Shown here piece after piece: positions 5,539 through 33,763 of a stretch of DNA of 33,763 nt; the first letter of the stretch is position 1; every line of letters begins with the position of its first letter. The notes beneath the pieces were generated by a model. It was given only the letters and a program-made list of their open reading frames with translations, was not told the origin of the DNA and ran no database searches. A program made the position numbers and the translations under genes. This stretch comes from a virus: IMG/VR virus record IMGVR_UViG_3300035703_000278, positions 1 to 33,763 of that record; one strand, given 5' to 3'.

Positions 5539-6021
5539 ATGACGTTCATTTCAGTAGAAGCTCGTTCAGGAGTTCAACCTATTGCTGACACCAGCACAAC
5601 CCAACAGCACGCACTTGGGACAACCATCCGCGCCGTCGATGAGACCTACGGCGAGGGCGAGTTTGTTTACCTCAAGGGCGCAGCATCCACACTCGTTGGA
5701 TCCGTTGTTATCTTCGATCAGAAGGCAGCAACGACAACGCTTGCGGTTGCAGGCTCACGAGGCCCTGTGGCTGTGGCTATGTCCGCCAACGTTGCCAGCC
5801 AATATGGCTGGTACCAAGTAAGCGGCTCGGCTGTTGCTAAGGCTGGCACCGTAGCAGCTAACGCTTCGCCTTATGTTACCGCTACAGCGGGAACCATCGA
5901 CGATGCGGTAGTAGCAACGGACAAGATCGACGGCGCACGTTTCAAGAGCGCAGACGGAACCCCGTCGGCTGGCTTGGCAGTGCTCCAGCTTGCTCGTCCT
6001 TCGCTTAACGGCAACGGATAA
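5539..6021 (+). CDS. Head decoration / minor capsid protein
   Basis: A 160-residue, alanine-, valine- and threonine-rich beta protein with no charged clusters. The stretch YGEGEFVYLKGAAS followed by VVIFD resembles small capsid-decorating proteins that bind the coat lattice. It follows the coat gene by 29 bases and has a strong ribosome site (TAGGAGG, 5523-5529). It precedes the first late terminator, so it shares the high-expression coat transcript. The decoration role is inferred from position and composition. Confidence 0.75.
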   Translation: MTFISVEARSGVQPIADTSTTQQHALGTTIRAVDETYGEGEFVYLKGAASTLVGSVVIFDQKAATTTLAVAGSRGPVAVAMSANVASQYGWYQVSGSAVAKAGTVAANASPYVTATAGTIDDAVVATDKIDGARFKSADGTPSAGLAVLQLARPSLNGNG

Positions 6022-6034
6022 GCGGTTAACAAAC

Positions 6035-6067
6035 AGGGGGGCGCTAGTACAGGCCCCCCTACTTTTT
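6035..6067 (+). terminator. Intrinsic terminator after the coat and decoration genes
   Basis: AGGGGGGC (6035-6042) pairs with GGCCCCCCT (6052-6060) as an 8-bp GC-rich stem with a roughly 10-base loop. It is followed by ACTTTTT (6061-6067). It would cap the highly expressed capsid transcript and lower expression of the tail genes that follow. Confidence 0.88.
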
Positions 6068-6084
6068 AGAGAGAAAGAGACACA

Positions 6085-6756
6085 ATGGAATTCGACTTAA
6101 GCGGAATAGAGATCCCCGATAATGTTTACCAAAACGGCTTTGGCTCCGTGCGCGAAAAGGGCGCTCGCCCCCTCGTTCGATTCGAGTGGAAGCCGGTAGA
6201 GCTTAAGAGCAAAAGCCTAGACGAGGGACGGCCCATCTTCGAGCAGCGGCTTTTTGCCGAGCGACGGCTCCCTGGGTCCAAAGATTACCAGCCGGCAGAT
6301 GTCGAGGTGAAGTTTATCACTAACTCGCGCGGCTTAAAGGTACCGGATCCCTTGAACAAGATCGTGCGTGAGTACGGCGTCGAACTAAAGCGTTTCCTAG
6401 AGCTTGGCGAAAAGCCGCTCGATGGTACACCACTGGAAGAGTGGAGACAGATCACAAAGGACCGAATCGCTGCTTGCCACTGGCTTGATATTCGCACCGT
6501 CGAGGAGCTCGCCAGCATGCAAAATAACGACGCGGTCATCATGAAGCTTGGCCCTGGGGGGCGCGAGCTTGTGGCGCAGGCAAACGCCTACCTACAGGTT
6601 CGTGAAGATAGCTCGTATGCCGAGAAGCTAGCGGCAGAAAAGGAAGCTATCAAACGGGAAAGCGAGCTTCGCATCTCTCAGCTTCAAGCGCAGCTTGAGG
6701 CGATGGCTGAGAAGATTGAGGGGCTAGTAACCAAGAAGGAATCGAAAGGTAAATGA
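6085..6756 (+). CDS. Conserved phage protein with coiled-coil tail, unknown function
   Basis: A 223-residue protein found in many phages between the coat and tail genes. The middle part, GTPLEEWRQITKD with DIRTVEELASM downstream, looks like a short helical-hairpin module. The last 60 residues (E/K/Q-rich, ending in KKESKGK) form a coiled coil. It has a good ribosome site (AGAGAAAGAGA) and overlaps the next gene by ATGA, so the two are translationally coupled. A head-completion or assembly role is only inferred from position. Confidence 0.75.
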   Translation: MEFDLSGIEIPDNVYQNGFGSVREKGARPLVRFEWKPVELKSKSLDEGRPIFEQRLFAERRLPGSKDYQPADVEVKFITNSRGLKVPDPLNKIVREYGVELKRFLELGEKPLDGTPLEEWRQITKDRIAACHWLDIRTVEELASMQNNDAVIMKLGPGGRELVAQANAYLQVREDSSYAEKLAAEKEAIKRESELRISQLQAQLEAMAEKIEGLVTKKESKGK

Positions 6757-7610
6757 ATGTTCTGACCCTCATCCAAGATGCCTGCCGAGAGCTAAAGCTA
6801 CCTGTCCCTGCGTCTGCCGCTGGCAGCCCAGACCGAGAGATCCAGCTTTTAATCGGCTTGCTTAATCTTGAGGGGGCAGAGCTTCGCTCTAAATACGTCT
6901 GGCCGGTGTTGAATAAAGAGTATCTCTTTAACACATCGGCTGACGTGCAGGGCTATCCGCTACCGACCGACTTCGACTACGAGTGCTTCCAAACCCATTG
7001 GGACCGAACGAGCCATTGGTCCCTACGAGGCCCGCTCTCGCCGCAGGAATGGCAGCAACGAAAGAGCGGAATCACCCTCGTTCTTCCTCGTTTTGGCTTT
7101 CGAGTAAAAGGGGCAACCTCTACACCCTTCCTCGTTGAGCCTACGCCAGCAGCCACGCATCAGCTTGTGTTTGAGTATCAGTCGGTGAATTGGCTTCGCC
7201 CGTCGACCGAATGGGCAGCCTCGACGGTCTTTGCGGCTGGTGCCTACTGTTTCAGCGCCGGCAACGTCTACCAAACCACAGCAGGCGGCACCTCCGGCAG
7301 CACCGCCCCGACTCATAGCACCGGATCGGCTTCCGATGGTGGCGTCACATGGACCTTTACAACCTACGACAGGGTGCTCGCTGATACGGATGTATTAGTG
7401 CTGCCACCTCAGACCCTCAAAGCCGGCGTCAAGTGGCGCTGGAAGCGGGAGAACGGGGTCGAGTGGCAGACCTACTACGAGGAGGCAGTCGCCTCAGCAC
7501 GCCGCTCGATTCAATCGGGGCGCTCTGCTCGAGAGGTCTCACTTACACCGAGCAAGGGAACTGCGCTCATTAACTACTGGTCTATTCCAGATGGGGGTTT
7601 TGGTAACTAA
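6753..7610 (+). CDS. Head-tail connector / tail tubular-like protein with inserted CBM-like domain
   Basis: The N-terminus (LIQDACRELKLPVP, then LLNLEGAELR and YPLPTDFDYECF) and the later GPLSPQEWQQRKSG match the adaptor-like protein of many podoviruses that joins portal and tail. Around residues 150-205 there is an extra beta-rich stretch, GAYCFSAGNVYQTTAGGTSG then DGGVTWTF, resembling small carbohydrate-binding-type modules. The core resumes with VLPPQTLKAGVKWRWKRENG. Both ends overlap neighbours (ATGA, TAATG), indicating coupling. The adaptor role comes from family knowledge; the carbohydrate role is inferred. Confidence 0.75.
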   Translation: MNVLTLIQDACRELKLPVPASAAGSPDREIQLLIGLLNLEGAELRSKYVWPVLNKEYLFNTSADVQGYPLPTDFDYECFQTHWDRTSHWSLRGPLSPQEWQQRKSGITLVLPRFGFRVKGATSTPFLVEPTPAATHQLVFEYQSVNWLRPSTEWAASTVFAAGAYCFSAGNVYQTTAGGTSGSTAPTHSTGSASDGGVTWTFTTYDRVLADTDVLVLPPQTLKAGVKWRWKRENGVEWQTYYEEAVASARRSIQSGRSAREVSLTPSKGTALINYWSIPDGGFGN

Positions 7611-9385
7611 TGGCTCTGTCTCAAGACGAAAAAACTCGGCTTTTAGTTCTCCTCACGTTGCTCTCTCAGGGCTCCTCGGGCAGGCAAGCGCTTTCTACCA
7701 TTCAACCCATCCTGTCCCTCATTGAGCAAAAGCAGGGAGAATCCAAGGCAAGAAAAGATCAACGCCGTCAAGAGCGTAACGCCATGGCATCACAAGCTGG
7801 TGGCCTCGCTGGCTCCCTCGGCGGCATGTACCTCATCGGCAGGGCGCTTGCTCCTAATACGCCCCCATCATCGCCAAATGTTGTCAATGCCAGAGTAGTG
7901 AATGGAGACGTTGCAGCTGTTAATACGCCAAAAGTTGTGAGCGTCAATAAATCAGTGGCAACCGTAGAGACTCCGAATGGCACAACTCAACAGGTACCCA
8001 CTGAGGCGCTCAACGACAGCGGTTTTTGGAGTAGTGTGAACTGGAATTCTGTCGGCTTGGGGGCAACCTCTTTGCTTTCAGCTTATCAGGCCTACAAAGC
8101 ATATCAGGAAAAAGATTATGTCGGTGCCGGTATTTATGGAACAACGGCTGCAACGGGAACGGCGACACTGTTAGGCAGCCAAACCGCAGGCGCAGCGATG
8201 CCATACCTCGGACCGATTGCCGGCGCCTATCAGGGCTATAAGACCGCCGAAATGATCGGAGACTCGGCAGCTGGTAGCCGACGCAATCAACAAGGAGCTC
8301 TGGGTGGGGCCACCGCTGGAGCCCTGATCGGCTCGCCATTTGGACCCATTGGCATGGGAATAGGAGCAGCTGTTGGAGGAGCTGCCGGTTTAGTTGGTTC
8401 ATGGACTGGAAGCTCAAAGGGCAAAGCGCAAACAACGCGAGACAATATCCGAGGAAGCCTTCAAAACGCTGGAATCTTGGATGGTAATTACAAGGGCAGC
8501 CTCGCGGACGGATCTACCTATGACTTTGGAAAAGATGGTTCAACACTAAAGTGGAAAGAGATCGACTCCATAGCCGCTAAACAGCCAAAAGCATGGAACA
8601 GCGTGGTCCCTCTGGCTGATGCTTTAGCTGCCACCTACGGGTTTGTGGGGCAAAACGCCTCTGATGTTGCCGCTTGGTACGCAAAGGGAGCGGTGAGCAA
8701 TGCGGGCGATGATCAAAATATCGCCATAGAAAATATGCGGCATTTTGCAAAGCAGCAGGGCGTCACCTATGACATGACAAAGAAAAAGCTCGACGAGGCT
8801 TTAAAAGATGGGCGGATCGATCAAAGTCAATACGACTACTATCTCGGCGGTGCTCGAGCTTTGACTGATGGCAACGGCGCAACACAACCTCAACAACAAA
8901 TGTCTTACCAACCCCAACCCAATGCGTTTATGACGCAACCGCAAAAGCCTAAGAGCCTTCAAGACGTTTTACGCAATCAACAGATGCAGCAACAACAGCA
9001 ACCGCAAACCCCTCCACCCGTAAAAAGCTCATTCATGGCGCCATCGCCATTACCTGCTCAGGAACCGGTCCCTTCGTACCGTCAGCCCGCTCCGCTTCAA
9101 AATCAGAGCACAATACAACAGGGTGGACCAACCTACCGACCGCCGGCACCCCTACCATCGAATCAAGGGCAAATGGCTCAACCTTCAACCCGACCGCCGG
9201 CGCCACTTCCGGCTCAAAGCTCATTCTCAACACCTCCTCAGATTGCTCCCCCTGCAAACAACAATCAGGGACTTTTGAGCCTTAAGGATCAAATTAAGCA
9301 GGGGAACCAAAACGGCAACTTGGACCTTCAAGGGCTTTTGGGCTTGATTAGAAACTACAATCAGCAAAACGGGGCTAAGGCGTAA
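7610..9385 (+). CDS. Putative ejection (internal virion) protein, glycine-zipper segments and Pro/Gln tail
   Basis: A 591-residue protein not recognised by family. After a basic N-terminus it has three glycine/alanine-rich hydrophobic stretches (residues about 65-80, 173-220 and 231-266, the last containing GMGIGAAVGGAAG). These are of the glycine-zipper type seen in proteins that enter membranes. The C-terminal third is P/Q-rich and disordered, with a repeated RxPAPL motif (PSYRQPAPL, PTYRPPAPL, STRPPAPL). Its place among tail and ejection genes suggests a protein sent into the host with the DNA. That role is an inference. Confidence 0.6.
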   Translation: MALSQDEKTRLLVLLTLLSQGSSGRQALSTIQPILSLIEQKQGESKARKDQRRQERNAMASQAGGLAGSLGGMYLIGRALAPNTPPSSPNVVNARVVNGDVAAVNTPKVVSVNKSVATVETPNGTTQQVPTEALNDSGFWSSVNWNSVGLGATSLLSAYQAYKAYQEKDYVGAGIYGTTAATGTATLLGSQTAGAAMPYLGPIAGAYQGYKTAEMIGDSAAGSRRNQQGALGGATAGALIGSPFGPIGMGIGAAVGGAAGLVGSWTGSSKGKAQTTRDNIRGSLQNAGILDGNYKGSLADGSTYDFGKDGSTLKWKEIDSIAAKQPKAWNSVVPLADALAATYGFVGQNASDVAAWYAKGAVSNAGDDQNIAIENMRHFAKQQGVTYDMTKKKLDEALKDGRIDQSQYDYYLGGARALTDGNGATQPQQQMSYQPQPNAFMTQPQKPKSLQDVLRNQQMQQQQQPQTPPPVKSSFMAPSPLPAQEPVPSYRQPAPLQNQSTIQQGGPTYRPPAPLPSNQGQMAQPSTRPPAPLPAQSSFSTPPQIAPPANNNQGLLSLKDQIKQGNQNGNLDLQGLLGLIRNYNQQNGAKA

Positions 9386-19185: not shown

Positions 19186-19260
19186 TGGCTCCACGGGCAG
19201 GACTCGAACCTACAGCCACCGGCTTAACAGGCAGGCGCTCTACCATTGAGCTACCGTGGA
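19186..19260 (-). tRNA. tRNA-Asn (anticodon GUU)
   Basis: The minus strand folds into a complete 75-nt tRNA with acceptor TCCACGG/CCGTGGA, D arm GCTC-AATGGTA-GAGC, anticodon loop CTGTTAA, variable loop TGGCT and T arm GTAGG-TTCGAGT-CCTGC. It has discriminator G and an encoded CCA. Anticodon GTT reads AAC and AAU. One pair in the anticodon stem (position 29-41) is a T-C mismatch. It lies 10 bases after the SSB-like gene in the same direction, so it is probably processed from the early transcript. Confidence 0.95.
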
Positions 19261-26821: not shown

Positions 26822-28153
26822 ATGAGAACAAATTCCCGAGAAAACCCATCACGGTTGACTAGACCGCTGTCGACTAAAGTCGACGAGCTCCCTCACTCTT
26901 ATACCGCCAAAGTACCAGTAGATCCCCAATCAGTCACCAGAAAAATGTTTAGTGAAATTGAAGGCTTAGTACCCACGTTTGAAACGGTCGATATTCCGTG
27001 GATTGAACACGGTTATAAAACCAGATTCAACCTAACATATCAGGCACTTGGCAGGGAGCATCGTTACCTTACGAGAACTAGAAGGAAATCCGCGCTTATT
27101 TGTAAGCTTTCGGACCTACTAAAGCTTCTCTACATTGCGAGAACTCGCAAAATTGCCCCCCTCAGATCACGCCTAGCGCTGTTGGAAATATCCCACAGGC
27201 GCCGATGTGCGGGCCGTGTTGGCACGTTCTCGATGGGCGAGTTTCGCTCGCTCGTAGGTGGTACAAGAATCACCGATCAAGAGGTGCTGGCGCTCTTAAA
27301 AAATCCAAAGGTCGACGTCTCAGAAAATACCCTACACGAGATGGCGAAGGTGCTAGGGCAGGAGCGCCTCGACCGCCCCGTGTGGATACCCCGCCGGCTT
27401 GTTCGACACCTTGCCGCCCATGGGTCACGGCTTGAGATTGCGGCTTCTCTTACCCTTGCAGCACGGCGCATGGTGAACCGCTTTGGAAGGGCTCGAGTAT
27501 CGGCTCGGATGGTGGCTGAGCTGGCAGGTGCAAACGAGAAACACGTCCGATCCGCCCTTGAATCGCTCCAATTCAAACGCCTGTTGATAAAAAATAAGCA
27601 GGCAGAGAGGTGGTCGGTTAACCGCTGGGGCTCCCTCTACGACTTCCCCGAGGATCTCTCAATCGACCCTTTAAACGAGCAAAAGCCCCTAAGAGCTCCT
27701 CCCCGACGGCGTACCTCGATGGGTTTCTCCCCCCGCAGTCATGGGGTGGTGCTCTCAATGCTTGTCGTGTCCGGCTGTCCGAAACGCCCGTTCACCGGAC
27801 GTCCGGACAGAGGTGCCGCTACCCCTTCAACGCAAAAAGGGGCCAATCTTATAAACCCAGACCCTAGCTCTTTGCTAGAGCAGCAGCAAAGCTTAGCAGA
27901 ACCCCTCCAAATGGCACCGCCTAACGCCGAACATGCGGCAGAACGCCGCCGGCTGGGCTTGCTTGCAAAAAATTTATGGCTGGATAGGGGGGAAGCTGGG
28001 GCCTTTTACCGAAACGCTTGGTCAAACCTGCACACACCCGAAGCAGCCACCGAGGCTCTTTCGGTTTGGGGCTTTGACCACTGCCGCAGCATTCGCCGTC
28101 AATTTCCACCACACCGACCCGCCCAAGCCCCTTGGAGGAAAAAAGCCGCATGA
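26822..28153 (+). CDS. Winged-helix DNA-binding protein, putative replication initiator
   Basis: A 443-residue, very basic protein. Around residues 205-275 there is a winged-helix pattern (LEIAASLTLAARRMVNRFG, RVSARMVAELAGANEKHV, LESLQFKRLLIKNKQ). A Pro/Arg-rich, probably disordered linker follows (280-360), then a helical C-terminal domain (LAKNLWLDRGEAGAFYRNAW). The layout of DNA-binding part, linker and C-terminal part suits an O-type initiator that recruits host helicase. The phage has no replication enzymes of its own, which supports this. The role remains an inference. Confidence 0.55.
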   Translation: MRTNSRENPSRLTRPLSTKVDELPHSYTAKVPVDPQSVTRKMFSEIEGLVPTFETVDIPWIEHGYKTRFNLTYQALGREHRYLTRTRRKSALICKLSDLLKLLYIARTRKIAPLRSRLALLEISHRRRCAGRVGTFSMGEFRSLVGGTRITDQEVLALLKNPKVDVSENTLHEMAKVLGQERLDRPVWIPRRLVRHLAAHGSRLEIAASLTLAARRMVNRFGRARVSARMVAELAGANEKHVRSALESLQFKRLLIKNKQAERWSVNRWGSLYDFPEDLSIDPLNEQKPLRAPPRRRTSMGFSPRSHGVVLSMLVVSGCPKRPFTGRPDRGAATPSTQKGANLINPDPSSLLEQQQSLAEPLQMAPPNAEHAAERRRLGLLAKNLWLDRGEAGAFYRNAWSNLHTPEAATEALSVWGFDHCRSIRRQFPPHRPAQAPWRKKAA

Positions 28154-28488
28154 AGTCACACCTCGACGATCAGGTTCTACACGCCATCCTGTCTGAGCAG
28201 GCCAGCCAACAGCCGGAACGTAGGCTTCTCTGGGCTATGCTTAAGCGCTGGATCTTGGATTACACCGGAGCATGCTCGAGAACGAACCGAGAAGCCTACC
28301 CGCTTGATGCCCGTTTTGACGCCGTAGAATGGGCGTGGAGCGACAGTATCGACCCGTTTAGCTACCAATGGGTTTGCGACGTGCTCGGCCTTGACGCCGA
28401 ATGGCTGCGCCGCAGTGCGGACAAAACCGCCATGCGGGCTGAAACTCTGGGCCCTCTTCTCGGCAGAATTGGCAGCCTTGAGATTTAA
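28150..28488 (+). CDS. Conserved small phage protein, unknown function
   Basis: 112 residues from ATG 28150, coupled to the initiator stop (ATGA). The stretch LDARFDAVEWAWSDSIDPFS followed by WVCDVLGLDAEWLR is a pattern common in small phage proteins near replication or regulatory genes. The last 131 bases overlap, on the opposite strand, the end of the leftward zinc-ribbon gene. The conserved core ends before most of that overlap. Confidence 0.7.
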   Translation: MKSHLDDQVLHAILSEQASQQPERRLLWAMLKRWILDYTGACSRTNREAYPLDARFDAVEWAWSDSIDPFSYQWVCDVLGLDAEWLRRSADKTAMRAETLGPLLGRIGSLEI

Positions 28489-28702
28489 AAATATCGGGAA
28501 CAGCGGCTTCGGAGATGTGGTACTCGCGCTCAACGACCCACTGGTTTTTGACGAGGAGCTCGTGAATTACTAGCCCGCGCTCTGAGACCCAGACGCGCGA
28601 CATGTCGGTGCTTATTTTAAGCATGATCTTTTGACGCCCTCGTTTGCTGGTTGCAAGGGTAGGGAACTCAAAAATCTCCTCATCGTATCGGTGCTGGATC
28701 AT
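28358..28702 (-). CDS. Zinc-ribbon protein, overlaps the convergent gene
   Basis: About 114 residues from ATG 28702, which overlaps the end of the HNH-fusion gene; the longer frame to 28753 would overlap it too far. The C-terminus is a convincing zinc ribbon: CQFC, then FCPHCGAAIR 16 residues on. The N-terminal part is beta-rich (KIMLKISTDMSRVWVSERG). The zinc ribbon is encoded in the 131 bases that also encode, on the other strand, the end of the 28150 gene. Function unknown. Confidence 0.6.
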   Translation of the reverse strand: MIQHRYDEEIFEFPTLATSKRGRQKIMLKISTDMSRVWVSERGLVIHELLVKNQWVVEREYHISEAAVPDIFKSQGCQFCREEGPEFQPAWRFCPHCGAAIRRQGRARRKPIGS

Positions 28703-29108
28703 CTCTCTGACAAATCTTTCGGATGGTTCCCTCTTTCCATCCATGTTTACCACGCTTAGGGGGAATTTCCATTTGGTTTAAGGTGTCGCAGATCGCTTGT
28801 AAGGTTACGCCGCCTCTTCGCCAGAGTACAATGATCTGCCGCACGGCAAGCTCCTCTGGGTGCGGTACGAGCCATCCTTCGACTACCTGCCAGCCAAAGG
28901 GAATCGAGCCGCCTGTAAATTTCCCCTGATTTTTGAGTATTTGGAGGGCTTCCTTGGTTAACTGTGAGGTGTTCCAGTGCCCCGCCTTGCCGTGGGCTTT
29001 GGGGTGACACGCACCGCAAAGGGCGACTGTTTTCTTGCCGCCAAGGACTTTAGGCACAACATGATGACGATGGGTGGCGGGAGAACCGCACTCAAAGCAC
29101 GCTGGCAT
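28680..29108 (-). CDS. HNH endonuclease fused to a serine-recombinase 'Recombinase' domain
   Basis: A 142-residue protein with two parts. Residues 1-40 are an HNH nuclease: zinc ligands C4, C7, C31, C34, the HH pair at 15-16, and H35/H39 (RHHVVPKVLGGKKTVALC). Residues 68-135 match the Recombinase DNA-binding domain of large serine recombinases (IPFGWQVVEGWLV, LQAICDTLNQMEIPPKRG, GWKEGTIRKIC). The catalytic serine (Resolvase) domain is absent. The start has AGGGGG. It follows the RHH regulator gene and precedes the zinc-ribbon gene. Confidence 0.85.
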   Translation of the reverse strand: MPACFECGSPATHRHHVVPKVLGGKKTVALCGACHPKAHGKAGHWNTSQLTKEALQILKNQGKFTGGSIPFGWQVVEGWLVPHPEELAVRQIIVLWRRGGVTLQAICDTLNQMEIPPKRGKHGWKEGTIRKICQRDDPAPIR

Positions 29109-29123
29109 TCCCCCTAGATGGCA

Positions 29124-29279
29124 CTACTTCGAGGCTTCGAGAATGAGCATCTCGATAGTTCTGCTCATGCTTAAATTTCGACGAAGCGCCAAACGGCGCA
29201 GCTTCTCATGTATATCAGGCCGCATGGCGAGCATAATTCGCTTTCGCTTCTCGCTCGGCTTGGCTTTAGGTCTTGGCAT
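29124..29279 (-). CDS. Ribbon-helix-helix regulator (CopG/Arc type)
   Basis: A 51-residue protein from ATG 29279 (GGGGAG three bases upstream). The basic start (MPRPKAKPSEKRKRI) leads into a short strand and two helices (MLAMRPDIHEKLRRLALRR, SMSRTIEMLILEA), the usual RHH layout of dimeric repressors. A perfect inverted repeat at 29282-29307 covers its ribosome site, so autorepression is likely. It sits between the small 87-residue gene and the HNH fusion. Confidence 0.8.
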   Translation of the reverse strand: MPRPKAKPSEKRKRIMLAMRPDIHEKLRRLALRRNLSMSRTIEMLILEASK

Positions 29280-29326: not shown

Positions 29327-29590
29327 TTAAGAGTTATTTACCTCTTCCTCGACTTTCCCCGCAAGGGTCTTGAGAAGCCGGTAGCCGCCATCAGGTGCGC
29401 TTAACACCCCTGTGGTTACAGCCCAGCTCTCAAATTCCTCAAGGGGCATTTGCTTAAGCTCACGCCATACCCCGTTGGACCGGCATCGCCAGAGGGTAGC
29501 TACCTCGCCGTTTTTGGTTATTCGGTAAACGACCTCGTTTACAACATCGCTCTTAATGACGAGCTGCTCGCTCTTTTCTTTGTCTTTCAT
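29327..29590 (-). CDS. Small protein in the integration block, unknown function
   Basis: An 87-residue protein with a charged start (MKDKEKSEQLVIKSD), a beta-rich middle (EVVYRITKNGEVATLW, WRELKQMPLEEFESW) and an acidic end (KVEEEVNNS). The ribosome site is GGAGTGACTAACC. Position next to the integrase could suit an excisionase or a regulator, but no HTH is visible. Confidence 0.65.
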   Translation of the reverse strand: MKDKEKSEQLVIKSDVVNEVVYRITKNGEVATLWRCRSNGVWRELKQMPLEEFESWAVTTGVLSAPDGGYRLLKTLAGKVEEEVNNS

Positions 29591-29693: not shown

Positions 29694-30785
29694 TTATGCA
29701 GCTCGCTTTTTAGAGGTAGGGAAGGCAAGCCCTTTTGCTGGGCTCTTATCGACGCCGAAACGGCGCTTATCATACCATTCAACCATCTGGACCGACTTGT
29801 GGCGTGAGAACTCCTGAACCTCACGATACGGTGTCCCGTCAGCCAACAGCTTGGTGATTGCCGTGGCGCGGGCAGAGTGGGGGGTATAAGCCTCGCTTAG
29901 CCCAGCCGCCTCACACGCACGCTTAAAGATTAGGTACACAGAGGCATCGTTCATGGGCCTGTTGGTCTGTACCCTTCCGGCTCGCCCCGTCCACGTTACA
30001 AAAAGCGGCTCATCTTGAGCTGCCCCGCTTTCTGTGCGCTCGTTAACAAGCGCCCATACCGCATCCGCAGCCCACTCGGGGAGCGCCTGTTGATGGTCGG
30101 CTCCGTCTTTTGTGTTTCGCAGGTTAAGGAATGTAGTGCCGCCGTGGCTCTTGTCCACATCTCCAATCAAAAGCTTTACGACCTCACCGCGCCGCAGGCC
30201 ACCGCCAAACAGCACACACAGGATCGCTTTGTCGCGCGTTGCTCGAGGGCTCTCTTCGATGGCCTCAATCACCGCCGGCACCTCGTCAAAATCAAGCGCC
30301 TCAGTGTCGCGCTTCCTACCGCCTTTTGCGTTCGGGACAGGTACAAGGTGAGGAGAGAAAGGGTTCCCGCTTAAGTAGACCCCATGCGCTATGAGAACCT
30401 CGTAGAGCTTTCGTAAGCACATGATCTTTTTGGCTATTGTGGCGGGGCTATGAGCGCTACTGCCGTGGGCAGGGGCAGGTTTACCCGCTCGCCGAGCCAA
30501 CCGATTGATGCGGGGAGTTTGTCCCCGTTGTCGCTTAAGCTGCTGGACATAAGAAAGAGCATGAACAGGTAAAGCGGAAGCCATAAGCTCAGCCGCTGCT
30601 CTTGTTCCTGCGGTGGCGCCTAAAAATGCGCTGTATTCACGGATGATCGAAACGTAGGTGCGCTGTGTCGTCGGCGCTAGATGGGCAAGCCAAGCGGCCA
30701 CTTTTAGCCACAGTGCATGACGCTCAGCAACATCTCGAACAAGGGTCATCCAATCCACGCTCACAGTATGAGTCAAACGACCCAC
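29694..30785 (-). CDS. int: Tyrosine integrase
   Basis: A 363-residue tyrosine recombinase that would insert the phage into the host chromosome. The catalytic set is present: Arg198 (GGGLRRGEV), Lys226 (NTKDG), His303-x-x-Arg306 (HSARATAITKLL), His329 (FSRHKSVQM) and Tyr338 (VEWYDKRR). The N-terminal core-binding domain includes APTTQRTYVSIIREYSAFL, and the basic segment about 85-110 likely contacts DNA. Start GTG 30785, with AGGA upstream. It is transcribed leftwards, opposite to the late genes. Confidence 0.95.
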   Translation of the reverse strand: MGRLTHTVSVDWMTLVRDVAERHALWLKVAAWLAHLAPTTQRTYVSIIREYSAFLGATAGTRAAAELMASALPVHALSYVQQLKRQRGQTPRINRLARRAGKPAPAHGSSAHSPATIAKKIMCLRKLYEVLIAHGVYLSGNPFSPHLVPVPNAKGGRKRDTEALDFDEVPAVIEAIEESPRATRDKAILCVLFGGGLRRGEVVKLLIGDVDKSHGGTTFLNLRNTKDGADHQQALPEWAADAVWALVNERTESGAAQDEPLFVTWTGRAGRVQTNRPMNDASVYLIFKRACEAAGLSEAYTPHSARATAITKLLADGTPYREVQEFSRHKSVQMVEWYDKRRFGVDKSPAKGLAFPTSKKRAA

Positions 30786-31172: not shown

Positions 31173-32372
31173 ATGGACATACAAAACCGGCGGGTCGATT
31201 CGCTGATCCCCTATAGCCTTAACAACCGGACCCACCCCGCTGAGCAGGTGGCTCGTATAGCCAACAGCATCAGCCAGTTTGGGTTTAATCAGCCGATAGT
31301 GATAGACGAGTCGAATGTAGTGCTCGTAGGCCACGGGCGCCTTTTAGCGGCTCAGAAGCTTGGGCTGTCTGAGGTGCCAACGCTCAAGGTGGAGAACCTC
31401 ACCGAGTCAAAGAAACGCGCCTACCGCATCCTCGATAACAAGCTGCAAAACGACAGCGAGTGGGAGCTCGACAACCTAAAGCTTGAACTCGCCATGCTTG
31501 AGGATGAGGGCTTTGAGCTCGAGCCGTGGGGCCTTGAGAGCTTGCTTCCAGAGGATCCGGTGCCGGAGGTGGTAGAGGATGACTTTGAGGCAGAGGAACC
31601 CACAGAGGTATACATCAAAACAGGCGACCTTATAGAGCTGGGGCAGCACCGTGTTTTGTGTGGTGATTCTACGCAAGAAGAGGACGTGGGGCTTCTAATG
31701 GGCGGCGCAGTCGCCGAAATTATGGTTACTGATCCACCCTACGGTGTGGAATACGATCCAGCGTGGCGGGAGGAATACGATGGTGGATCAAGAGCGACGG
31801 GGCAAGTAGAGAACGATGATCGAGCTGACTGGACAGAGGCTTGGAGGCTTTTTAAGGGGCAGATTGTTTACGTTTGGCACGCTGATAAATTTTCCCCCGT
31901 GGTAGCCGACAGTCTAGAGAAGTGCGACTTTGAATTGAGAAACCTAATTATATGGGCAAAACAGCGTCACACGTTCGGAAGAGGACACTATCATCATCAG
32001 CATGAGCCATGCTGGTACGGGGTGAAGAAAGGAACGACCGCTAATTGGGGGGGAGATAGGACACAAACAACCCTGTGGAGCATTGAAAGCAATCGACGAA
32101 ACGAGACAGGACACGGCACCCAAAAGCCTATCGAGTGCATGGCTCGGCCAATGCGGAATCATGGTGTTCGTTCGATTTACGATCCTTTTCTGGGCTCTGG
32201 CACAACCTTGATAGCAGCCGACCAACTAGGTCGGCAGTGTTACGGGATGGAGATAAGCCCAAAGTACTGCCAGATCATCCTAGAGCGCTACAAAGCCCAC
32301 TGTGAGAAAGAGGGCAAGCCATTTGTATGCCGCATAAATGGGGAGGCTTTCGATGGCAAGGTGCGGGCGTAA
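31173..32372 (+). CDS. ParB-like domain fused to a DNA methyltransferase
   Basis: A 399-residue protein. The N-terminus is a ParB/Srx-type domain (SISQFGFNQPIVIDESN, GHGRLLAAQKLGLSEVP). A DNA methyltransferase follows: DPPY at 187-190 (VTDPPYGVEY) and the later SAM motif DPFLGSGTT at 337-345. The order DPPY first, then FxGxGTT, marks a beta-class amino-methyltransferase (N6-adenine or N4-cytosine). No restriction partner is next to it, so it is an orphan, probably for protecting phage DNA or for packaging or expression control. It lies between the holin-like gene and terS. Confidence 0.92.
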   Translation: MDIQNRRVDSLIPYSLNNRTHPAEQVARIANSISQFGFNQPIVIDESNVVLVGHGRLLAAQKLGLSEVPTLKVENLTESKKRAYRILDNKLQNDSEWELDNLKLELAMLEDEGFELEPWGLESLLPEDPVPEVVEDDFEAEEPTEVYIKTGDLIELGQHRVLCGDSTQEEDVGLLMGGAVAEIMVTDPPYGVEYDPAWREEYDGGSRATGQVENDDRADWTEAWRLFKGQIVYVWHADKFSPVVADSLEKCDFELRNLIIWAKQRHTFGRGHYHHQHEPCWYGVKKGTTANWGGDRTQTTLWSIESNRRNETGHGTQKPIECMARPMRNHGVRSIYDPFLGSGTTLIAADQLGRQCYGMEISPKYCQIILERYKAHCEKEGKPFVCRINGEAFDGKVRA

Positions 32373-33031: not shown

Positions 33032-33763
33032 TTAACACATGGGCACCACAGGCAGGGCCGCAAGCGGAAGCCATCACCGCCACATGGTGCGATGAGTTGT
33101 TTTTCGGTGGCGCTCGAGGAGGAGGAAAATCGGACTTTCTTCTTAATGACTTTGCCCAAGACATAAACCGCTATGGTAAGCACTGGCAGGGCATCCTCTT
33201 TCGTAAATCGTACCCAGAGCTTTCAGGTCTGGTCCAGCGCTCTCACTCGCTGTGGTCACAATCGGGTGCTGAGTGGAAGGAAGCAAAGCATCAGTGGCAA
33301 TTTCCTAACGGTGCTGTCCTACGCTTTCGCCATCTTGAGCGAGACCTCGACGCAGGGCGCTATCAGGGCCACCAATATCCTTGGATAGGTTTCGACGAGC
33401 TCACGAATTGGGCAAGCCCAACCGCCTACGACATGATCAAGGCGTGCCGCCGTTGGGCAGATGCCGAGCTTCCAACCAAGCGCGTGCGCTCCTCTGGCAA
33501 CCCTGGGGGAGCCGGTCATCAGTGGGTAAAGAGCCGCTTTATTGACCCAGCGCCCACCGGCTTCACGCCGATGCAGGACGATGAGACGAAGTGGTGGCGA
33601 ATGTTTATCCCTTCCAAGGTGAGCGACAATAAGATTCTGCTTCAAAACGACCCGAACTACATCAACACCCTGCGCGGTATTGGGTCAAAAGAGCTTGTGA
33701 GAGCGTGGCTCGAGGGTGATTGGAACGTCATTACGGGCGCTTACTTCGACACGTTTGAGGCTA
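33028..33763 (+). CDS. terL: Terminase large subunit, N-terminal part (continues at base 1)
   Basis: This is the ATPase motor that packages DNA into the procapsid. The ATG overlaps the stop of the preceding zinc-ribbon gene (ATGA). Visible motifs are Walker A, GGARGGGKS at residues 27-35 with K34; Walker B, WIGFDE around 119-124 with catalytic E124; and a coupling-type motif, SGNPGGAG. The frame is open to the window end and continues unbroken at base 1, because 33637-33763 repeats 1-127. The joined protein is 471 residues, normal for TerL. The fold and motif order are known for the family; the junction is seen directly. Confidence 0.97.
   Translation, partial: MINTWAPQAGPQAEAITATWCDELFFGGARGGGKSDFLLNDFAQDINRYGKHWQGILFRKSYPELSGLVQRSHSLWSQSGAEWKEAKHQWQFPNGAVLRFRHLERDLDAGRYQGHQYPWIGFDELTNWASPTAYDMIKACRRWADAELPTKRVRSSGNPGGAGHQWVKSRFIDPAPTGFTPMQDDETKWWRMFIPSKVSDNKILLQNDPNYINTLRGIGSKELVRAWLEGDWNVITGAYFDTFEA
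33637..33763. repeat. Terminal direct repeat, right copy (circular overlap)
   Basis: This is the second copy of the 127-bp overlap that begins the window. It lies inside the TerL coding sequence, which is an unlikely place for true phage ends. That favours a circularly permuted map over a unique direct terminal repeat. Confidence 0.95.

Follow-up and report, generated by a model that had tools for sequence, protein, structure and literature searches.

An HNH domain joined to the DNA-binding domain of large serine recombinases in phages: a probable nuclease family of the homing type

The locus analyzed here raises the question of what a phage does with a protein of 142 residues in which an HNH domain is followed directly by the DNA-binding part of a large serine recombinase. 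The window, by which we mean the whole stretch of DNA analyzed, is an IMG/VR virus record of 33,763 bases (IMGVR_UViG_3300035703_000278). Its positions 1-127 and 33637-33763 are identical (127 bp), and TerL seems to be divided between the two ends, as would be seen in a closed genome, probably that of a temperate phage. The genome also carries a tRNA gene at 19189-19260 (-) (RF00005, 65.9 bits), the only Rfam match, and, at 31173-32372 (+), a gene that joins a ParB-N domain to an N6/N4 DNA methyltransferase. The fusion protein is referred to below as HNH-RD, with RD denoting the Recombinase DNA-binding domain, and the features of the locus are collected in Table 1.

Table 1. Coordinates of the HNH-RD gene, its neighbors, and its domains in the window
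Feature	Coordinates	Strand	Evidence or remarks
Zinc-ribbon protein (ATG start, 128 aa; GTG start at 28753, 131 aa)	28358..28744	(-)	CxxC..CxxC; weak Zn-ribbon matches
Convergent orf118	28132..28488	(+)	Probably homologous to the gene that precedes TerL in the terminase-linked group; hhalign probability 82%
HNH-RD fusion protein, 142 aa, ATG start	28680..29108	(-)	Also conserved in four other contigs of this phage cluster
HNH nuclease domain, residues 1-45	28974..29108	(-)	C4/C7/C31/C34 zinc site; H15, H16, H35, H39 active-site candidates
Linker helix, residues 47-60	28929..28970	(-)	Matches recombinase helix E at its C-terminal end
Recombinase DNA-binding domain (RD), residues 62-135	28704..28925	(-)	PF07508, phrog_95, structure
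Arc-like RHH regulator of 51 aa, upstream of HNH-RD with a 15-bp gap	29124..29279	(-)	PHROG Arc-like repressor, E=1.4e-4
Small ORF of 87 aa, flanked by the integrase and RHH genes	29327..29590	(-)	34-38% identity in sister phages
Tyrosine integrase	29694..30785	(-)	PF00589, E=4e-28

The recombinase half of the protein is recognized by both profile and structure comparisons. Residues 85-134 are covered by PF07508 (24.9 bits against a cut-off of 21.1, E=2.4e-5), and positions 222-309 of phrog_95, annotated as 'integrase', match residues 47-134 (E=7.4e-15). The AlphaFold2 model of the window protein (mean pLDDT 85) comprises an HNH part with a strand-strand-helix order, a helix at residues 47-60, and the RD after it; in this predicted structure, residues 46-142 superpose on residues 149-253 of the SPbeta integrase (Z 10.2, rmsd 2.5 over 97 residues), and the RD part also superposes on the Bxb1, phiC31, and LI integrases (Z about 7-10). 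The matching part of the SPbeta integrase corresponds to what we take to be the DNA-contacting end of helix E together with the RD of serine recombinases. The joining of an HNH domain to a Recombinase DNA-binding domain, which the initial annotation had proposed from the letters of the DNA, is thus borne out, with a serine-integrase fold rather than an unrelated one in residues 46-142. The recombinase part had been placed at residues 68-135, a span that contains the PF07508 match, but its true start lies earlier, at about residue 46, and includes the end of helix E. The proposed lack of a catalytic serine domain also holds, in that no profile match to a resolvase catalytic domain with its nucleophilic serine was found in the window protein, residues 1-45 of which are HNH.

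The HNH half is more divergent from its profile: PF01844 (HNH) matches residues 4-39 of the window protein below its cut-off (E=0.0028) and relatives L132 and L155 above it, and several HNH PHROGs match the window protein from residue 3 on (E about 1e-3). In structure comparisons of the HNH part, IscB and Cas5-HNH are among the top rows, but at E>0.5 and Z<4, and the HNH part alone gives a weak match to the IscB HNH (rmsd 1.4 over 41 columns, E 1.8). Across 38 aligned relatives, C4, C7, H15, H16, C31, C34, H35, and H39 are invariant, so that the earlier description of the domain as a complete HNH stands for its histidines and cysteines, but not for the loop bearing the motif asparagine between the histidines; this loop of four residues is deleted in the window protein and in most (CFECG-type) members and retained, asparagine included, in canonical members such as L155 and L150. 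Colicin-type HNH enzymes bind their metal through a similar HH...H-x3-H set, and by this analogy the HNH domain of HNH-RD is expected to be active as a nuclease.

On the minus strand of the window, the gene order is tyrosine integrase, small ORF, RHH, HNH-RD, and zinc ribbon, faced by two plus-strand genes, and the zinc-ribbon ORF, which is conserved in sister phages, overlaps the 3' end of HNH-RD. The initial annotation had described this operon with RHH and zinc-ribbon proteins beside a tyrosine integrase and had suggested looking for the same order elsewhere; the order is confirmed and is kept in related contigs of sister phages (L082/G002, L090, and L083-L084/G013-G007). Identity of HNH-RD to the window protein is 70-72% in L082/G002 and 53% in L083-L084/G013-G007, the corresponding values being 84% and 58% for the integrase, 90% and 74% for the RHH protein, 71% and 47% for the zinc ribbon, and 86% and 68% for orf118. 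The neighbors are thus conserved to a degree similar to or greater than that of HNH-RD, as expected if the module is inherited vertically as a whole in the window cluster, where HNH-RD is present in all five contigs covering the locus and no empty-site relative was seen. In the window's lineage, the gene has settled in an integrase-linked operon, probably under RHH control, and, being inherited with its neighbors, may have been domesticated there.

The window protein is one member of a widespread family. The 75 loci found in an alignment scan include about 25 different HNH-RD proteins, along with several HNH proteins whose DNA-binding modules are of other kinds, and a hand-made DNA pattern spanning the HNH-RD junction, which favors GC-rich codons, returned 10 true members in 11 matches on viral contigs. 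The same pattern gave a single true HNH-RD (L183, Bacillus) in five matches across 85k bacterial and archaeal species genomes (about 257 Gb), and a profile search of 398 genomes of one bacterial phylum found no HNH-RD, its matches being to the recombinase domain only and none starting before profile position 41; on these counts, the family looks mainly viral. Narrow peptide patterns run on viral and genome contigs gave little or nothing beyond the window's cluster. Full-length matches were found neither in named phage records (with the window protein, L113, and L114 as queries) nor in named plasmid records (with the window protein and L114). Two gut-phage RD matches were considered as HNH-RD candidates and rejected, since they lie in long ORFs that are probably ordinary integrases.

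In the window protein and most scanned HNH-RD members, the match to phrog_95 starts at profile positions 220-231 and ends near 300-315, and the fusion point, as judged from these alignments, is essentially the same throughout. Among the pairs that allowed the calculation, dN/dS is about 0.07 in the window/L082 pair for the RD only and, with entire genes from the terminase-linked group described below, 0.15-0.21; the value near 1 in the close pair L108/L111 comes from few changes and is uninformative. By these substitution ratios, HNH-RD is under purifying selection; a chance ORF is excluded. Truncated serine recombinases do exist (e.g. L234), and the protein might on that account be a decayed fragment of a large serine integrase beside an unrelated HNH gene, the two joined by chance or by assembly, but the repeated occurrence of the fusion at almost one and the same point, across many lineages and in independent assemblies, together with purifying selection, in practice refutes this reading, to which we assign a negligible chance. 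The same data bear on the idea of a DNA-binding regulator in which the HNH fold is a structural zinc module only. Such a regulator would agree with the missing motif asparagine and with an operon shared with an RHH protein, but it is very improbable given that invariance extends beyond the zinc cysteines to H15, H16, H35, and H39, that the HNH half is constrained at least as much as the RD in most pairs, and that a relative occupies a nuclease insertion site.

This insertion site lies in a lineage other than the window's. Among 80 viral dnaE loci with an identity of at least 76%, one (L244) carries HNH-RD. L244 and L245, which share 85% identity over 2238 bp, align as far as the dnaE stop, and the alignment resumes at the start of the Clp-protease gene; the extra ~480 bp of L244 are the HNH-RD ORF, inserted precisely between these two points, and L245 represents the empty site. 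The junction could be measured in 58 loci, of which 47 are empty (3-36 bp) and 11 occupied, by HNH (three), HNH_3 with or without AP2 (two), PDDEXK_5 (one), QueF (three), an unknown gene (one), and HNH-RD (one). The insertion pattern of the L132/L244 member is homing-endonuclease behavior, and its position beside a polymerase gene matches the reported habit of phage homing endonuclease genes (HEGs), which cluster near DNA polymerase and terminase genes (PMC10448857). The RD of this member is weakly recognized (phrog_95 E=0.001, no PF07508 match). It provides the one precise insertion found with a near empty-site relative, a second clean absence being that of L202 in the terminase-linked group, so the mobility of the family rests on one well-resolved insertion, in a non-window lineage and with a divergent RD. 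Among the functions that had been listed for the window protein, homing consequently has the best evidence (ORF-only insertion, empty-site relatives), though in another lineage, and packaging is possible in the terminase-linked group. The dnaE-Clp-protease junction is also of interest as an insertion hot spot for unrelated nuclease genes and QueF, well suited to comparing homing endonucleases, and in L094, dnaE is followed by two genes in tandem, the one for an HNH_3-AP2 protein and the other an HNH-RD-like ORF truncated at the contig end.

Taken with the domain make-up and conservation observed, this insertion pattern leads us to consider that HNH-RD is probably a homing-type endonuclease or nickase of phages, free-standing and specific in the DNA site that it attacks. 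In the mechanism that we propose, a zinc-stabilized HNH nuclease would have replaced the catalytic domain of a serine recombinase, and the helix-E end and Recombinase domain, with which integrases hold on to half an att site, would have been kept as a targeting module. The RD would bind the site of HNH-RD, the linker helix would place the HNH domain over neighboring DNA, where it would cut, and a cut made in the phage population would copy the HNH-RD gene into genomes devoid of it. Specific binding by the RD, cutting nearby by the HNH, and spread of the gene by cutting are what we infer from the data; the idea, already put forward in the initial annotation, that a recombinase targeting domain has been reused to guide a predicted nuclease is supported by profile, structure, and comparative evidence.

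A different pattern is seen in a group of 14 loci defined by TerL at least 66% identical. HNH-RD is present in 13 of these, divergent from the TerL operon, and cleanly absent from L202, which keeps both the TerL region and a conserved non-coding stretch beside it; TerL relatives at 56% identity or less are without HNH-RD. Divergence of HNH-RD tracks that of TerL (Mantel r=0.80, p=0.0001, 11 sequences), a covariation unlike that of a freely moving gene. Since HNH-RD is close to fixation in this group and in the window lineage and is passed on there together with the genes around it, it may have a settled role in them, for example in packaging. HNH-RD could accordingly be viewed as a fixed packaging or replication nickase, whose RD would bind the cos site or origin of its own genome and which would nick and assist the terminase, as reported for the HNH protein of HK97, which acts with terminase at cos (discussed in PMC10448857). 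HNH-RD adjoins the TerL operon and the conserved non-coding stretch in 13 of the 14 loci, co-evolves with TerL, and is under purifying selection, all of which agrees with such a role, but the window gene lies ~3 kb from a putative small terminase gene, on the opposite strand and in an integrase operon, its neighbors in several other lineages are replication, recombination, or methylase genes, L202 dispenses with it, and it is missing from 79 of the 80 dnaE-group loci, so that we hold a fixed nickase to be rather unlikely. A mobile homing-type enzyme that has settled in some lineages explains all three lineage patterns with the least strain, and PMC10448857 likewise describes homing as compatible with a function in packaging in the case of the HNH protein of HK97.

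Several observations were made around these terminase-linked genes. In L198, L202, and L205, a strongly conserved non-coding stretch of 330-410 bp separates HNH-RD (or its empty site) from TerL; it is 90% identical between L202 and L205, with or without HNH-RD, has no Rfam match, and raises the question of whether it is a cos site, an origin, or a control region. Just past the HNH-RD stop in L120-L138 is a conserved TCTTAATTAA, then C-rich and alternating CACGCG repeats, at which many contigs break. Contig ends just after HNH-RD were considered as genome termini, but they coincide with these C-rich and CACGCG repeats and are read as assembly breaks. A conserved ORF of ~60 aa precedes HNH-RD (L121 4505-4675, L136 3359-3553), as the RHH gene does in the window cluster.

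The origin of the RD from enzymes that recognize att half-sites, and the place of the window gene in an integration module beside a probable RHH regulator, would also suit a nuclease directed against competitors or the host, in which the RD would direct the HNH to cut at att-like half-sites or other sequences carried by rival prophages, satellites, or the host. HEG-related nucleases are described as acting against satellites in ICP1 (PMC10448857), but for HNH-RD no target was found, PADLOC gave no match, and the relative at the homing hot spot is better explained by homing; we therefore regard this function as decidedly improbable. A broader scenario, which we offer as an unlikely one, is that phages have repeatedly made nuclease guides from serine-integrase modules and that some lineages, the window's included, have domesticated a regulated cutter of att- or cos-like sites, thereby excluding rivals that integrate through serine recombinases or starting packaging.

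As a probable homing-type nuclease, HNH-RD can be compared with several known systems. Phage HNH-AP2 homing endonucleases (IPA-HNH HEGs, with HNH_3 and AP2; PMC10448857) are, like HNH-RD, encoded by small free-standing genes and combine a nuclease with a C-terminal DNA-binding module, next to dnaE and at the same junction in related phages, whereas HNH-RD carries a serine-recombinase RD with the end of helix E instead of AP2, and its HNH is of the zinc-finger subtype without the motif asparagine. The SPbeta, Bxb1, phiC31, and LI integrases (PF07508) have an RD and helix-E end homologous to those of HNH-RD (Z 7-10), but HNH-RD differs from large serine recombinases in having no resolvase catalytic domain, nothing after the RD, and a length of 142 aa, most PF07508 matches in four bacterial genomes being in ORFs of about 300-760 aa. 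I-HmuI-type HNH homing endonucleases consist of an N-terminal HNH and C-terminal DNA-reading helices with an HTH module. The structure PDB 1U3E, cited in PMC6316719, represents this type. An N-terminal HNH and a C-terminal DNA-reading part are shared with HNH-RD, although the module of HNH-RD is unrelated and HNH-RD is not intron-encoded. The packaging HNH of the HK97 gp74 type has in common with one HNH-RD phage group a terminase-adjacent gene, but HNH-RD differs from it by its recombinase DNA-binding domain and, in most lineages, is not tied to terminase.

Swapped DNA-binding modules in homing endonucleases are already known. No report of an HNH/recombinase-domain fusion was found among the open-access papers searched, and the architecture may have been annotated earlier, for example in a domain database. 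If our reading is correct, HNH-RD would represent a class of homing-type nucleases that read DNA with the att-reading module of serine integrases, and comparing natural sets of HNH-RD proteins together with their occupied and empty sites would connect the sequence of the recombinase domain with its DNA target, which is of value given how difficult the targeting of serine integrases is to reprogram. It would also provide a natural design of about 140 residues for RD-guided nicking or cutting enzymes, indicate that the DNA-binding part of recombinases moves as a separate module between enzyme classes, and place mobile and nearly fixed states within one family.

Related HNH proteins carry HTH_7/HTH_38, HTH_62, or RHH-like DNA-binding modules, and the combination of a canonical HNH with resolvase-type HTH or HTH_62/Recombinase domains in L155, L150, and L183 suggests that fusions of nucleases with recombinase DNA-binding domains arose more than once. 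In L140 (831-1181), the same kind of HNH is followed by an RHH domain like NikA/DUF6290, another swapped DNA-binding module. In L115, a pair resembling IS607 (a serine recombinase and a TnpB-like ORF, identified by eye, 5888-7742) lies about 0.5 kb from HNH-RD.
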